This document shows, piece by piece, positions 1 to 5,230 of a DNA stretch of 43,271 bases. The notes below the pieces were generated by a model. It had not been told where the DNA came from. It did no database searches and saw only the letters and a list, made by a program, of their open reading frames with translations. The stretch's first letter is position 1. Every line of letters begins with the position of its first letter. Both the position numbers and the translations under genes were made by a program. The stretch comes from Bacteroidales bacterium (lineage in GTDB: Bacteria > Bacteroidota > Bacteroidia > Bacteroidales > WCHB1-69): contig JAQUGA010000002.1 of assembly GCA_028684405.1 (NCBI GenBank), positions 1 to 43,271 of the forward strand, given 5' to 3'.

Positions 1-33
1 GAACATCAAAATAATCAAGGTTCAGACAAATGA
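1..33 (+). CDS. 3' end of upstream gene, probably hsdM (partial)
   Basis: Frame 1 is open from the window edge and reads EHQNNQGSDK before a TGA at 31-33. That TGA overlaps the ATG of hsdS at 30-32 (ATGA), the usual junction of translationally coupled genes. In type I restriction loci the gene just before hsdS is commonly the methyltransferase subunit hsdM. The identity is inferred from context only, because ten residues are too few to recognise a family. Confidence 0.5.
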   Translation, partial: EHQNNQGSDK

Positions 34-35
34 AA
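1..35 (+). repeat. Direct repeat copy 1 (hsdM/hsdS junction)
   Basis: These 35 bases align without gaps to 754-788 inside hsdS, with 30 of 35 identical by hand count. The last 23 bases differ at one position only. Here the segment spans the end of the upstream gene and the hsdS start. Similarity runs up to the window edge, so the repeat may extend further upstream. Confidence 0.8.
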
Positions 36-1415
36 AAATACGACAACTATAAAGACTCAGGCATTGAATGGATTGGGGAAATTCCTGAGCATTGGATAAG
101 CATTCCAATGAGATTTTTGCTGAGACAAAAGATAACTGACGGACCTCACGAAACCCCCCAATTTTTAGCGGAAGGCATTCCTTTTTTATCTGTTGATGGT
201 ATTCAGAATGGGGAATTAGTTTTTGAAGGTTGCAGGAAAATATCAGAAGAAGACCATAACAGGTATAAACAAAAATGTATTGTTGAGCAACACGATATTT
301 TAATGGGAAAAGCAGCATCTGTAGGTAAAGTAGCCCAAGTAAAAGTTGATTTTGAATTTAGTATTTGGTCGCCACTTGCTCTTTTAAAACCAAATCACAA
401 TAAAATTACATCTTCATACTTTGAATATTTCCTAAAAAGTACATATGCTAAGGATAATGCAAATATCCTTTCAACTTTTAATACCCAACAGAATATAAGT
501 ATGACTGATATTCCAAGGATTTATTATGTAATACCCAATTCAATTGAAGAACAAACCGCCATCGCCAACTACCTCGACCGCAAAACAGCCGAGATAGACG
601 AACTGATAGCCGACAAAAAACGCCTGCTCGAACTCTACGAAGAAGAAAAAACAGCCATCATCAACCAAGCCGTTACAAAAGGTCTGAACCATGATTACGA
701 AGGATTAAGTGATGACCCTGATTTTGAAAACCAAACTGAAATCAAGCCATCAGGGAAATCCAAAAAATCAAGGTTCAGACCAATGAAAGAGAGCGGTATT
801 GAATGGTTGGGGGAAATACCTGAGCATTGGGAGGTGAAGAGATTGAAGTATGTCGTCAGCTTAAATGATGAAACTCTTTCTGAAAAGACAGACGAAGAAA
901 TGCATATTGACTATATTGAAATAGGAGGACTAAAAAACGGTAATATAGGTTCAACAGAGTACCGTTTTGGAAATGCACCATCGCGGGCAAGAAGAATTGT
1001 TAGAAATGGCGATGTTATAGTTTCAACAGTAAGAACATATTTAAAAGCCATTGCCCAAATCTCTGATGATAAAGATGGTTATATAGCTTCTACTGGTTTT
1101 GCTATTTTAAGACCCAAAAAGATTGATTCAAAATTTTTAGGTTATTATTCGTATAGTCCATTTTTTATTGATAACACAATAGCAAATTCAGTGGGAGTTA
1201 CATATCCTGCAATCAATGCTTCGAATATTTTAGAATTTCCAATTCAAATACCACCCATTGAAGAACAAAAAGCCATCGTCCATCACATCGAAATCGAATG
1301 TACCCGAATCGATGCCAAAATAAATAATACCAAAAAACTAATCGGCCTACTCACCGAATACCGTACCGCCTTAATCAGCGAAGTAGTAACAGGAAAAATA
1401 AAAGTTACGGATTGA
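30..1415 (+). CDS. hsdS: Type I restriction-modification specificity subunit HsdS
   Basis: HsdS chooses the bipartite DNA target of a type I restriction-modification complex and docks two HsdM and two HsdR subunits. The 461-residue protein shows the expected two-fold design. Each half opens with a near-identical motif (GIEWIGEIPEHW at about 11-22, GIEWLGEIPEHW at about 256-267). A variable target-recognition domain follows. Each half closes with IEEQ.AI plus a charged helix (about 172-220 and 409-455), the conserved coiled-coil spacers. The ATG at 30 overlaps the upstream stop (ATGA). In the same frame a TAA stop at 12-14 precedes SRFRQM, while the matching site inside the gene reads KSRFRPM. 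The central linker therefore looks like a read-through copy of the gene's own start region. The codons of the first spacer look more GC-rich than those of the recognition domains, which fits mosaic origin. The family call is secure; the target sequence cannot be predicted. Confidence 0.96.
   Translation: MKKYDNYKDSGIEWIGEIPEHWISIPMRFLLRQKITDGPHETPQFLAEGIPFLSVDGIQNGELVFEGCRKISEEDHNRYKQKCIVEQHDILMGKAASVGKVAQVKVDFEFSIWSPLALLKPNHNKITSSYFEYFLKSTYAKDNANILSTFNTQQNISMTDIPRIYYVIPNSIEEQTAIANYLDRKTAEIDELIADKKRLLELYEEEKTAIINQAVTKGLNHDYEGLSDDPDFENQTEIKPSGKSKKSRFRPMKESGIEWLGEIPEHWEVKRLKYVVSLNDETLSEKTDEEMHIDYIEIGGLKNGNIGSTEYRFGNAPSRARRIVRNGDVIVSTVRTYLKAIAQISDDKDGYIASTGFAILRPKKIDSKFLGYYSYSPFFIDNTIANSVGVTYPAINASNILEFPIQIPPIEEQKAIVHHIEIECTRIDAKINNTKKLIGLLTEYRTALISEVVTGKIKVTD
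754..788 (+). repeat. Direct repeat copy 2 (hsdS central linker)
   Basis: This is the internal partner of the repeat at 1-35. It lies in the linker between the two half-subunits and encodes KSKKSRFRPMKE. At the position matching the TAA at 12-14 it has AAA (765-767), so the frame stays open. Two direct copies flanking the first half-subunit could recombine and delete or exchange that half. Confidence 0.8.
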
Positions 1416-1416
1416 T

Positions 1417-2226
1417 ATGGACAAGTATAAAAATAAATATCGTATTCAATCACACAGAAAACCCGGTTGGGATTATTCCAATAATGGGTATTATTTTATT
1501 ACCATCGTTACCCAAAATCGCGAATGCAATCTTGGAGATATTGTCAAGACGCACGGCCGTGCGTCTGATATTGCACAAATCCGATTATCCGATTTTGGTA
1601 AAATCGTTGAGAATGAATGGTTAAAATCATTTGAAATACGAAAGGAATTGTTTTTGGATGTGTATGTGGTAATGCCAAATCATATTCACGCCATTATAAT
1701 TTTGGACAAAAATGAAAATGATACCAACGGTTTGGTTGATACCAACGGTTTGAACGAATTGGATGGTTTGAATGAATTGGATGGTTTGAATGAATCGGAT
1801 GGTTTGAATGAATCGGATGGTATGAATGAATCGCGCGTCGTAGAGACGCACGGCCGTGCGTCTCTACGACCCAACGACCAACCCAACGACCAACCCAACG
1901 ACCAACCCAACGACCAACCCAACGAACATCCCAACGAACATCCCACCGAACATCCCACCGAACATCCCACCGAACAAACAAAATTCATCCGCAAACCAAA
2001 ATCGATATCGTCATTTATTGCGGGGTTTAAATCGGCGGTTAATTCGAAAATTGATGATTACATTGATGCAAACAATTTGGATATTCCAAAATACAATCGG
2101 AACAATCATTTTTTTCAATCCAATTATCACGACCACATTATTCGTAATGAAAAATCCTACCGTACCATTTCTGAATACATTATAAACAATCCCCTAAATT
2201 GGGAAAACGACAAATTCAATGAATAG
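1417..2226 (+). CDS. REP-associated tyrosine transposase (RAYT, HUH/Y1 type)
   Basis: RAYTs are IS200/IS605-like single-strand nucleases that cleave and join DNA at REP hairpins and are usually single-copy and domesticated. The N-terminus (GWDYSNNGYYFITIVTQ) and the HUH metal site MPNHIH (H89, H91) are typical. The likely catalytic tyrosine is Y254 in SEYIINNPLNW, aligned by memory to the E. coli RAYT helix. The core looks intact, but at 269 aa it is long. Residues about 105-187 between HUH and Tyr are low-complexity: GLNESD repeats, then VVETHGRASLR encoded by a 34-bp palindrome, then nine PNDQ/PNEH/PTEH units. A second palindrome copy encodes KTHGRAS near residue 45. The ATG lies one base after the hsdS stop, and the stop overlaps the hsdR start by 8 bp. 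The gene is therefore co-translated with the restriction genes rather than a free insertion. No transposon ends were seen. Whether the protein is active is unknown. Confidence 0.9.
   Translation: MDKYKNKYRIQSHRKPGWDYSNNGYYFITIVTQNRECNLGDIVKTHGRASDIAQIRLSDFGKIVENEWLKSFEIRKELFLDVYVVMPNHIHAIIILDKNENDTNGLVDTNGLNELDGLNELDGLNESDGLNESDGMNESRVVETHGRASLRPNDQPNDQPNDQPNDQPNEHPNEHPTEHPTEHPTEQTKFIRKPKSISSFIAGFKSAVNSKIDDYIDANNLDIPKYNRNNHFFQSNYHDHIIRNEKSYRTISEYIINNPLNWENDKFNE
1547..1566. repeat. 20-bp perfect palindrome, REP-like core copy 1
   Basis: The sequence agacgcacggccgtgcgtct is its own reverse complement and is identical to the middle 20 bases of the longer palindrome at 1837-1870. It lies in frame in the RAYT gene and encodes part of KTHGRAS. 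It is far more GC-rich than its surroundings. A GC-rich hairpin of this kind is what RAYTs are known to recognise as REP sequences; that it is the target here is inference. Confidence 0.85.
1729..1833 (+). repeat. 18-bp minisatellite in rayT (GLNESD units)
   Basis: About six tandem 18-bp units of the type ggtttgaatgaatcggat run to the edge of the palindrome. The first (GLVDTN) and last (GMNES) are degenerate and the middle four nearly identical. Eighteen is a multiple of three, so gain or loss of units keeps the RAYT frame open. Confidence 0.9.
1837..1870. repeat. 34-bp perfect palindrome, REP-like element inside rayT
   Basis: Seventeen bases on each side of the 1853/1854 centre are exactly self-complementary (arm gtcgtagagacgcacgg). 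The element encodes VVETHGRASLR in the RAYT frame. Because it is a palindrome, the reverse strand reads the same peptide, as seen in the antisense ORF track. It separates two different tandem repeats. It could extrude as a cruciform or form a strong mRNA hairpin in the middle of the operon. Confidence 0.95.
1870..1977 (+). repeat. 12-bp minisatellite in rayT (PNDQ/PNEH/PTEH units)
   Basis: Nine consecutive 12-bp units begin with cccaacgaccaa, drift to cccaacgaacat and end as cccaccgaacat. The stepwise drift suggests growth by slippage or unequal exchange. Unit length keeps the frame. All frames through this region are open, which explains the overlapping shadow ORFs in the track. Confidence 0.93.
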
Positions 2227-5200
2227 CATAACAACCGAAAATACATTTGAAACCGCCCTTGTACAAACATTGGTAGAGCAAGGTGGTTACACACAAGGAA
2301 ATGCCGAAGATTACAGCAAAGAATTGGGGATGTTCAAATATGAGGTGATTGCTTTTTTGCAAACATCTCAACCCAAAAGATGGGCTAAAATCTCTGCCAT
2401 ACACGGAGCCGATACCGATAATAGAATTATACAACGCTTATCCAAAGAACTCGATTTAAGAGGCAGTTTAGATGTACTTAGGAATGGTTTTGTAGATTAT
2501 GGTGTACGTTTCCAAATGGCCTATTTTCAACCTGCTTCGGGGCTTAACCCTGATGCGGTGGATTTATACAATAAAAATAGCTTAAAAGTGTATCGCCAAA
2601 TCTATTACAGCACCAAAAATAAAAACTCGGTAGATGTTGTACTGGCACTAAACGGGATTCCTGTGGCTACATTAGAACTGAAAAATCAGTTTACAGGTCA
2701 AAACGTTGGCAACGCTTTAAAGCAATACAGTTCAACAAGGGATAATAAAGAGCTGCTGTTCGCTTTCAAAAAAAGGACATTGGTACACTTTGCTGTTGAC
2801 CAAGACGAGGTATTTATGACCACAAAATTAGATGGTAGTAAAACATTTTGGTTGCCATTTAATAAAGGAGCAAACAACGGAAAAGGAAATCCGCAAAATG
2901 AAAATGGCTATAGAACGGCTTACTTGTGGGAATACATTTTGCAGAAAGATAGTTGGATGGAAATTTTGCAACGTTTCTTGCATTTAGAAACGGAAGAGTT
3001 TGAATCTAATGGCAAAATTTACAAGAAAGAAAAATTAATATTCCCTCGATACCATCAATTAGATGCCGTCCGTAAAATCAGTAAAAATGTACTCGAAGTT
3101 GGAGCAGGCACAAATTATTTAATACAACATTCAGCAGGCTCGGGCAAAAGTAATTCCATTGCTTGGTTGGCGTACAGGCTTTCAAGTTTGCATAACGAAC
3201 AAGACAATAGGATTTTTGACTCGGTGATTGTGGTTACCGATAGAAAAGTACTCGACCAACAATTGCAAAACACCATTTATCAATTTGAACATAAAACGGG
3301 TGTTGTTCAGCGAATAGATAAAGACAGTACACAATTAGCCGATGCTTTGTGCTATGGTACAAATATTATTATTACCACTTTGCAAAAATTTCCTTTTGTG
3401 GTGGATAAAGTTGGCGAGTTGCCCGACCGAAACTATGCAGTAATTATTGATGAAGCTCATAGTTCTCAGGGAGGCGAAGCAAGTAAAAAAATGAAAGAGG
3501 TTTTAGCGGCAAAATCATTAGAGAATGCTGTAGAAGAAGACCTATCTGATGACTATACAGGCGATGATTTTATAAGAGAGGAAATAGAACGTTCCGCAAA
3601 AGCAAGAGGTCAGCAAAGTAATATTTCATTTTTTGCATTTACCGCTACGCCAAAGTACAAAACCTTACAAGTTTTTGGTCATAAAGACCAGCCTGACGGC
3701 AAGGCAGGCACCGAAGGCAAACCGCAACCCTTTCATTTGTATTCAATGCGGCAAGCCATTGAAGAAGGGTTTATTTTAGATGTTTTGAAAAATTACGTCA
3801 CTTATGAACTTTACTTTAAACTGACCAAAGCCATTGAAGATGACCCCAATTTGAACAAAAAGAAAGCGGCAAAAGCAATTGGTAAATTCGTTTCCTTGCA
3901 TCCGCATAATTTGGCTCAAAAAACAGAAATCATTATTGAACATTTCAAGCAAATTGTTTCTAAAAAAATTGGAGGAAGAGCAAAAGCAATGGTGGTATGT
4001 GGTTCAAGGTTACACGCCAAACGCTATTTTGAAGAATTTAATAAGTACATAAAGGAAAAAGGCTATCAAAACGACATTAAAATACTTGTAGCATTCTCGG
4101 GTAAAGTAATAGATGATAACGCCCCTGATGGAGTTTCTGAACCACAAATGACAGGCTATAGCGAAAGAGAATTACCTGAAATTTTTGACAGTGAAGATTA
4201 CAAAATTTTAATAGTAGCCGACAAATACCAAACAGGTTTTGATCAACCACTTTTACAAACAATGTATGTAGATAAAAAACTCTCAGGAGTAAAAGCAGTA
4301 CAAACCTTATCCCGTTTAAACAGAACTTGTGCGGGGAAAGAAGATACATTTGTTTTAGACTTCGTAAATGACCGCGAAACAATTTTTGAATCGTTTCAAC
4401 CCTATTATGAAATTACATCGGTTACTGAAGAAACAGACATCAATCATTTATACGACTTAAAAGCAAGATTGGATGAATTTCAGCTCTATTGGAAAACAGA
4501 AATTGAAGCGTTTGCAAATGTTTATTTCCATCCTGAAACAAAGCTGAATAGCCCGAAACAACAAAAACACCTCTATTCATTTACCGATCCTGCCGTTGAT
4601 AGATTTAAGGAAATAGAGGAAGAAGAAAAACAAGACGAGTTTAAAAAAGGATTACGAACCTGGACTAACCTTTACGCCTTCTTGGCTCAAATTATGCCAT
4701 TTGTTGACCCAGATTTTGAACGGTTTTATGCTTATGCGAAACTTTTACAAACGAGATTACCAAAGAGAGAACTTTCTGAAAGTTTGCATTTAGACGATGA
4801 AGTGGCTTTGGAATATTATCGTTTACAGAAAATCAAAGAAGGTTCAATTGATTTGTTGACAGGAGAGACAGGAGAATTGAGCGGGACAACAGAAGCAGGT
4901 TTAAAACGAGCAAAAGACGAAGAGGCTTTACTCTCTGAAATTATCAATGTGCTGAACGACCGTTTTGGAACTGAATTCGAAGAGGCTGACAAACTTTTCT
5001 TCGACCAAATAGAAGCGGAATTGATGGAAGATGAAACGCTTCAAACGCAAGCAAAAGTAAATAAGATTGATACTTTTAAATACGCCTTTGAAGATTTGTT
5101 TATCACGAAACTGATTGACCGAATGGATCAAAATCAGGAAATCTTTGAGAAAATCCTTGACGATAAAGTGTTTGGAGGCTTAGTTAAAGAACTAATGATG

Positions 5201-5230
5201 AAAAAAGTATATAAGAAAATGAATGAATAA
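2219..5230 (+). CDS. hsdR: Type I restriction enzyme motor/nuclease subunit HsdR
   Basis: HsdR cuts DNA and translocates it with ATP hydrolysis as part of the type I complex. The 1003-residue protein has an N-terminal nuclease domain with the PD-(D/E)xK-like segment ATLELKNQ (about 151-157). An SF2 helicase core follows: Walker A HSAGSGKS (304-311), motif Ia VVTDRK, DEAH (411-414), FFAFTATP (motif III), and GFDQPLLQ...QTLSRLNR (motifs V-VI). The C-terminal part (from about 830) is helical and charged and fits the HsdS/HsdM docking region. Length and motifs match a full, intact family member. The ATG lies inside the end of rayT (overlap 2219-2226), so translation is probably coupled to that gene. 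The order hsdS-rayT-hsdR is unusual because of the gene in between. No frameshift is visible. Confidence 0.97.
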   Translation: MNSITTENTFETALVQTLVEQGGYTQGNAEDYSKELGMFKYEVIAFLQTSQPKRWAKISAIHGADTDNRIIQRLSKELDLRGSLDVLRNGFVDYGVRFQMAYFQPASGLNPDAVDLYNKNSLKVYRQIYYSTKNKNSVDVVLALNGIPVATLELKNQFTGQNVGNALKQYSSTRDNKELLFAFKKRTLVHFAVDQDEVFMTTKLDGSKTFWLPFNKGANNGKGNPQNENGYRTAYLWEYILQKDSWMEILQRFLHLETEEFESNGKIYKKEKLIFPRYHQLDAVRKISKNVLEVGAGTNYLIQHSAGSGKSNSIAWLAYRLSSLHNEQDNRIFDSVIVVTDRKVLDQQLQNTIYQFEHKTGVVQRIDKDSTQLADALCYGTNIIITTLQKFPFVVDKVGELPDRNYAVIIDEAHSSQGGEASKKMKEVLAAKSLENAVEEDLSDDYTGDDFIREEIERSAKARGQQSNISFFAFTATPKYKTLQVFGHKDQPDGKAGTEGKPQPFHLYSMRQAIEEGFILDVLKNYVTYELYFKLTKAIEDDPNLNKKKAAKAIGKFVSLHPHNLAQKTEIIIEHFKQIVSKKIGGRAKAMVVCGSRLHAKRYFEEFNKYIKEKGYQNDIKILVAFSGKVIDDNAPDGVSEPQMTGYSERELPEIFDSEDYKILIVADKYQTGFDQPLLQTMYVDKKLSGVKAVQTLSRLNRTCAGKEDTFVLDFVNDRETIFESFQPYYEITSVTEETDINHLYDLKARLDEFQLYWKTEIEAFANVYFHPETKLNSPKQQKHLYSFTDPAVDRFKEIEEEEKQDEFKKGLRTWTNLYAFLAQIMPFVDPDFERFYAYAKLLQTRLPKRELSESLHLDDEVALEYYRLQKIKEGSIDLLTGETGELSGTTEAGLKRAKDEEALLSEIINVLNDRFGTEFEEADKLFFDQIEAELMEDETLQTQAKVNKIDTFKYAFEDLFITKLIDRMDQNQEIFEKILDDKVFGGLVKELMMKKVYKKMNE

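Follow-up and report, generated by a model that had tools for sequence, protein, structure and literature searches.

The hsd locus at the start of the contig

The window, a stretch of 43,271 nucleotides from a Bacteroidales bacterium, forms the start of contig C18 in a genome assembled into 296 contigs and 87% complete. It begins with the first base of C18, so that the sequence upstream of it can be read only on other contigs. The window opens in a type I restriction–modification (RM) locus with the following features.

1–33, forward strand: 3' end of a GxxExxY gene (reading frame EHQNNQGSDK*); the same bases form the right arm of a full-length element, with its tip GGTTCAGAC at 19–27 and its remainder on contig C230
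1–95, forward strand: direct repeat x, copy 1, composed of the element right arm and codons for the conserved SGIEWIGEIPEHW
30–1415, forward strand: hsdS, type I specificity subunit of 461 amino acids (PF01420, 5e-25; fold matches solved HsdS)
543–577, forward strand: direct repeat y, copy 1, at the end of TRD1 and the start of the central helix (repeat family D1, 80% identical to 1257–1291)
754–830, forward strand: direct repeat x, copy 2, in the linker
1257–1291, forward strand: direct repeat y, copy 2, at the end of TRD2
2219–5230: hsdR

HsdS is a type I specificity subunit, with two PF01420 (Methylase_S) stretches joined by a conserved helix. Repeats flank both recognition domains, TRD1 and TRD2 (families D1–D3), giving hsdS the layout x-TRD1-y-x-TRD2-y. 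The same layout has been described for HsdS domain movement in other bacteria (PMC3077401).

Contig C230 (5005 bases, locus L007) shares window bases 1–95 at 99% identity and, past a different TRD1, again shares bases 551–615 at 95%. Its gene order is hsdM, then a GxxExxY (PDDEXK_3) gene, then hsdS. Because the 95 bases are shared and the assembly has no close hsdM besides the C230 copy, the two contigs most likely represent two alleles of one locus. The hsdM and hsdR genes accompany hsdS in one operon, hsdM presumably so through its linkage on C230. Bases 1–577 of C230 hold the second hsdS allele, with the other TRD1 inside the shared flanks, pointing to either a mixture of strains or an exchange of domains in the population that was sampled.

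The interval between hsdS and hsdR (1417–2226) contains a gene resembling REP-associated tyrosine transposases (RAYTs), which scored 59 bits, below the 80-bit cut-off. This gene holds two copies of the palindrome GCACGGCCGTGC, the sole copies in the genome, as well as tandem repeats of 18 and 12 bases (1747–1833 and 1869–1977). The HsdM encoded on C230 (L007:1037–2839, reverse strand) contains the peptide KTHGRASL, similar to a peptide read from the REP palindrome of the RAYT-like gene, and hsdM on C230 may also carry an in-frame palindrome.

The repeat and the element in the HsdS linker

An earlier note on this DNA had reported that window bases 1–35 recur at 754–788, with a TAA at 12–14 matched by AAA at 765–767. 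Both observations are exact. The two stretches are identical at 30 of 35 positions in an ungapped alignment, a match beyond any found in 1000 dinucleotide-preserving shuffles of the 1415-base region, where the best match of the 35-mer averaged 20 positions with a maximum of 25. Downstream, the repeat runs on, with a gap, to 95/830, over codons for SGIEWxGEIPEHW. On the upstream side, where the note had proposed checking for an extension past the window edge, bases taken from C230 show that the repeat does continue (43 of 50 positions identical); its longest perfect tract is 15 bases. When the 15-mer AATCAAGGTTCAGAC was searched in the whole genome, allowing at most one mismatch, it was found before hsdS, in the linker, inverted at window 682–696, and inverted at the 3' end of hsdM on C230. 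All matches are thus confined to the hsd locus, which rules out a repeat spread throughout this genome; the two inverted copies were absent from the earlier account.

The note had taken the upstream copy for the end of hsdM. On C230, hsdM and hsdS are separated by the GxxExxY gene, and the upstream copy is the end of that gene. This gene encodes a protein of 140 amino acids that matches TIGR04256 (138.5 bits, cut-off 35) and PF13366 PDDEXK_3 (9e-39), and a D...ExK motif, VDFFIEDCIMLEIKA, can be read off its sequence; the GxxExxY protein is a nuclease-like member of the PD-(D/E)XK nuclease superfamily. Inverted arms flank the gene, ending GTCTGAACC...GGTTCAGAC, and the arms of the hsdM–hsdS junction element begin with GTCTGAACC, followed by short degenerate units that contain TGATT.

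Inside hsdS, the repeat forms part of a longer structure, with the following features.

681–781, forward strand: element without an open reading frame, in frame in the HsdS linker; hairpin with the terminal inverted repeat GGTCTGAACCATGATT / AATCAAGGTTCAGACC
681–729, forward strand: left arm, homologous to the left arm of the junction element in the related locus L077 up to the GxxExxY start codon
738–788, forward strand: right arm and following codons, 43 of 50 positions identical to the right arm of the C230 junction
690–779, forward strand: codons of the 30 inserted residues 221–250, HDYEGLSDDPDFENQTEIKPSGKSKKSRFR, which replace the PDV of the plain linker

The arm ends at 681–696 and 766–781 are 94% complementary and enclose a 69-base stretch. 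As a single strand, 676–790 folds with an energy of −19.8 kcal/mol, compared with −8.2 ± 2.1 for shuffled sequences (z = −5.5), and none of 200 shuffles was as stable. A 9-base period within the arms is visible by eye and not significant by autocorrelation. Since each arm can be aligned with the arm of a GxxExxY element, the right one with that on C230 and the left one with that in L077, the linker insert is best read as a GxxExxY element whose gene has been deleted; the arms are low in complexity and the arm-to-arm alignments modest. As in MITEs, terminal inverted repeats occur without a mover gene, and related full-length elements with a GxxExxY gene are present on C230 and in relatives. Empty and filled sites were compared for a target-site duplication, and the element ends were not resolvable. 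A candidate near-species empty site for another GxxExxY element, in genome G001, was discarded, its flanks not being shared.

The AlphaFold2 model of HsdS (mean pLDDT 84.7, pTM 0.76) has a fold that matches solved HsdS chains in the PDB. In this model, pLDDT falls below 50 in one segment only, residues 221–248, which is the inserted peptide, and both the central helix (172–217) and the start of TRD2 near residue 252 are intact. The insert is predicted to be a disordered loop of about 30 amino acids that leaves the spacing helix untouched. As the disorder is limited to the insert and the spacing helix is intact, a change in half-site spacing is not expected.

To place the insert among related proteins, 80 HsdS relatives were fetched, and 79 of their linkers were delimited automatically (L083, plain by eye, was left out). 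A plain linker of 20 residues is present in 64 of the 79, compared with 47 residues in the window, a net gain of 27 residues (81 bases). Three other linkers (L086, L071, and L147) have inserts of the window's kind, and about seven (L088, L107, L110, L077, L090, L093, and L076) carry palindromes of another sort at this position, a count made partly by eye; some of the latter are REP-like, and not all of them fold better than shuffles. The HsdS linker seems to tolerate insertion at this position and has repeatedly taken in-frame inserts, several of them palindromic. The native linker codons GGTCTGAACCCTGATG (in L135) resemble the arm GGTCTGAACCATGATT, a likeness that may explain the choice of insertion site.

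GxxExxY genes were found in 12 of 83 loci, which comprised those of the 80 HsdS relatives plus three more. The hsdM–hsdS junction is filled at the same spot in C230, L077, L108, L088, and L076 and is empty in L078, L080, L113, L083, L085, and others, and the GxxExxY element is located after hsdS in L071, L086, and L107. All four loci with a window-type linker contain a GxxExxY element, versus 7 of 77 others (hypergeometric probability about 2e-4); without the window, the figures are 3 of 3 versus 7 of 77 (about 1.5e-3), for loci that are not independent of one another. The L147 linker scored 48 against its own local element and at most 21 against any other, the best match of the L086 linker is not its own element, and that of the L071 linker is the L108 element.

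Origin of the linker copy and exchange of recognition domains

We consider it probable that an inverted-repeat element occurs in two copies at this RM locus and that the 35-base repeat is its right end. The full copy, with the GxxExxY gene between its inverted arms, would be that between hsdM and hsdS, and the linker copy would be the same element after loss of its gene. An hsdS that already had two domains would have received the linker copy in frame, between TKGLN and PMKESG; local transposition or recombination with the junction copy is the most likely route, perhaps helped by native codons (GGTCTGAACCCTGATG) that resemble the arm. The insert would have been tolerated because it forms a disordered loop in the stretch that separates the central spacing helix from TRD2. 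A side effect would be a longer direct repeat before both recognition domains, leading to the x-TRD1-y-x-TRD2-y layout.

With the element arm as part of x, the repeat ahead of TRD1 and of TRD2 is longer, which could allow the recognition domains to be exchanged. The earlier note had raised recombination that would swap or delete the first recognition domain and change specificity, and an allele with this domain replaced does occur in the same assembly, on C230, where a different TRD1 stands between x and y. A search of the assembly for silent hsdS cassettes, which the note had also suggested, yielded none with this repeat and, apart from C230 and a 71-base hsdS tail remnant on contig C108, no others. 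Mobility of the element, the direction of copying, and any role in specificity switching are inferences.

The C108 remnant (L006, 5189–5259) comprises 26 codons of an hsdS 3' end, is 94% identical to the window, and stands immediately before a Schlafen/AlbA_2 gene; a gene similar to the latter comes after the post-hsdS GxxExxY element in L071 and L107.

The linker copy could also have arisen by domain movement with no transposition at all, if recombination between the N-terminal and central flanks had carried the arm and the start of hsdS into the linker. In keeping with this, the x-TRD1-y-x-TRD2-y layout is the one known from PMC3077401, the arm occupies corresponding positions in both places, two bases before ATGAAA, and C230 carries another TRD1, which is also where the locus resembles the domain movement (DOMO) system. 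The locus differs from that system in that half of x is element arm here and that, in the only two alleles seen, no TRD was found at both positions. Against this route, the linker contains a left arm and a sequence like a GxxExxY start beside the native TKGLN codons; unless the element had been copied in its entirety, recombination of just the N-terminal flank would account for the right arm and not the left. We regard this route as unlikely.

The account given in the earlier note involved two half-hsdS genes, each behind the end of the upstream gene, that were fused by deletion, with one base change opening the stop codon. It captures correctly that the linker holds a DNA-level copy of the junction, with AAA in the hsdS frame where the junction copy has TAA; the repeat is, however, the arm of a GxxExxY element and not the end of hsdM. 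Yet plain two-domain HsdS proteins are common (64 of 79), and the linker insert appears as an addition among relatives. A fusion is not needed, since L085 shares TRD1 with the window (DNA-level homology over the full length) and has a plain linker and no element before hsdS. A fusion at the junction would also not predict the left arm. It is very improbable, and insertion takes its place as the explanation of this hsdS. Ordinary conservation between the HsdS N terminus and linker, with nothing inserted or copied, accounts for about 786–830, SGIEWxGEIPEHW being present at both places in nearly all relatives, but can be dismissed for the upstream 33 bases, where 1–33 and 754–785 belong to another gene and frame (EHQNNQGSDK*) and to HsdS (KSKKSRFRP), respectively, and where the matching part is missing from plain linkers.

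With insertion of a gene-deleted element as the preferred reading, the element likely supplies repeats by which restriction enzymes could switch to another target. HsdS relatives in the window genome's own family are distant only, most with less than 40% identity, and relatives of the central region with up to 68% identity sit in other groups. Together with the absence of the motif from the rest of the genome, this distribution suggests horizontal acquisition of the locus, elements included.

In-frame insertion into genes is known for Rickettsia palindromic elements and other MITEs (reviewed in PMC10969869). The linker element resembles the former as a short palindrome without a mover of its own that lies in frame and is translated as an extra peptide, a likeness by kind. 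It differs in having a full-length GxxExxY relative adjoining it, in its Bacteroidota-type locus, and in arms made of short degenerate units. The REP/RAYT system (PMC3733652) offers a second parallel: such palindromes occupy the same linker spot in L088, L107, and L110, and here the gene downstream of hsdS is RAYT-like and itself contains such palindromes. In contrast to REPs, the linker element of the window is longer, has imperfect arms, and differs in sequence.

Inverted repeats around GxxExxY and S23 genes

The motif AATCAWGGTTCAGAC was found in 20 of 295 genomes of the same order, compared with a single match for a reversed control pattern. Several of these loci have a GxxExxY gene between or beside the tips, and others have none nearby. 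In its own genome, the element lacks the many dispersed copies that occur in other genomes (e.g., G274 and G302). A single fixed tip for all GxxExxY elements was ruled out, as the tips vary and the inverted arms are what is general. A literature search with GxxExxY, PF13366, and TIGR02436 found no description of such an element, which is weak evidence for novelty given that subscription journals fell mostly outside the search.

Generality was assessed with the inverted-repeat score between the two 250-base flanks of a gene, which had to beat all of 100 shuffles; positions shifted by 900 bases served as controls, and the loci were best-scoring matches rather than a random sample. GxxExxY flanks were positive in 21 of 28 loci from relatives and 23 of 29 from the phylum (controls, 2 of 49 and 1 of 57), that is, in 44 of 57 loci versus 3 of 106 shifted controls. 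Genes for S23 four-helix proteins in the same order (L151–L180) behaved similarly, with 24 of 29 positive versus 1 of 51 shifted controls. The S23 flanks consist of inverted repeats of 7-base units and have a strong 7-base period (7.1 standard errors), whereas the GxxExxY flanks have a weaker period of 9–10 bases (about 3–4 standard errors); in controls taken 700 bases away, the codon period predominates.

S23 genes are known from the Coxiella 23S rRNA intervening sequence (IVS), where heptamers lie beside the gene (PMC4990558). The GxxExxY element is like this IVS in having a small ORF within inverted repeats and short tandem units beside it. It does not qualify as one, being located in an hsd protein operon rather than in 23S rRNA; its ORF is GxxExxY, and its period is 9–10 bases, not 7. 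Tentatively, and with slightly more doubt than confidence, we suggest that GxxExxY and S23 are genes of one broad, unnamed type of mobile element. Such elements would have inverted arms of repeated units, about 9–10 bases long for GxxExxY and 7 for S23, the 23S rRNA IVS would be a special case, and copies without an ORF would enter genes in frame. Two very common annotations without a function, "GxxExxY protein" and "four helix bundle (S23) protein," are hereby tied to inverted-repeat elements with characteristic periods, a link that makes their role testable.

Two further observations concern GxxExxY genes elsewhere. In L059/L067 (G284:C40), tandem 15-base units (GGTTCAGACAATCAA and variants) lie beside the gene, which suggests that the array is an expansion of the element tip. 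In L245 (2–2434, reverse strand), a GxxExxY domain is fused to the N terminus of an apparent RecQ-type helicase, and an open frame of the size of this fusion was seen in three genomes.
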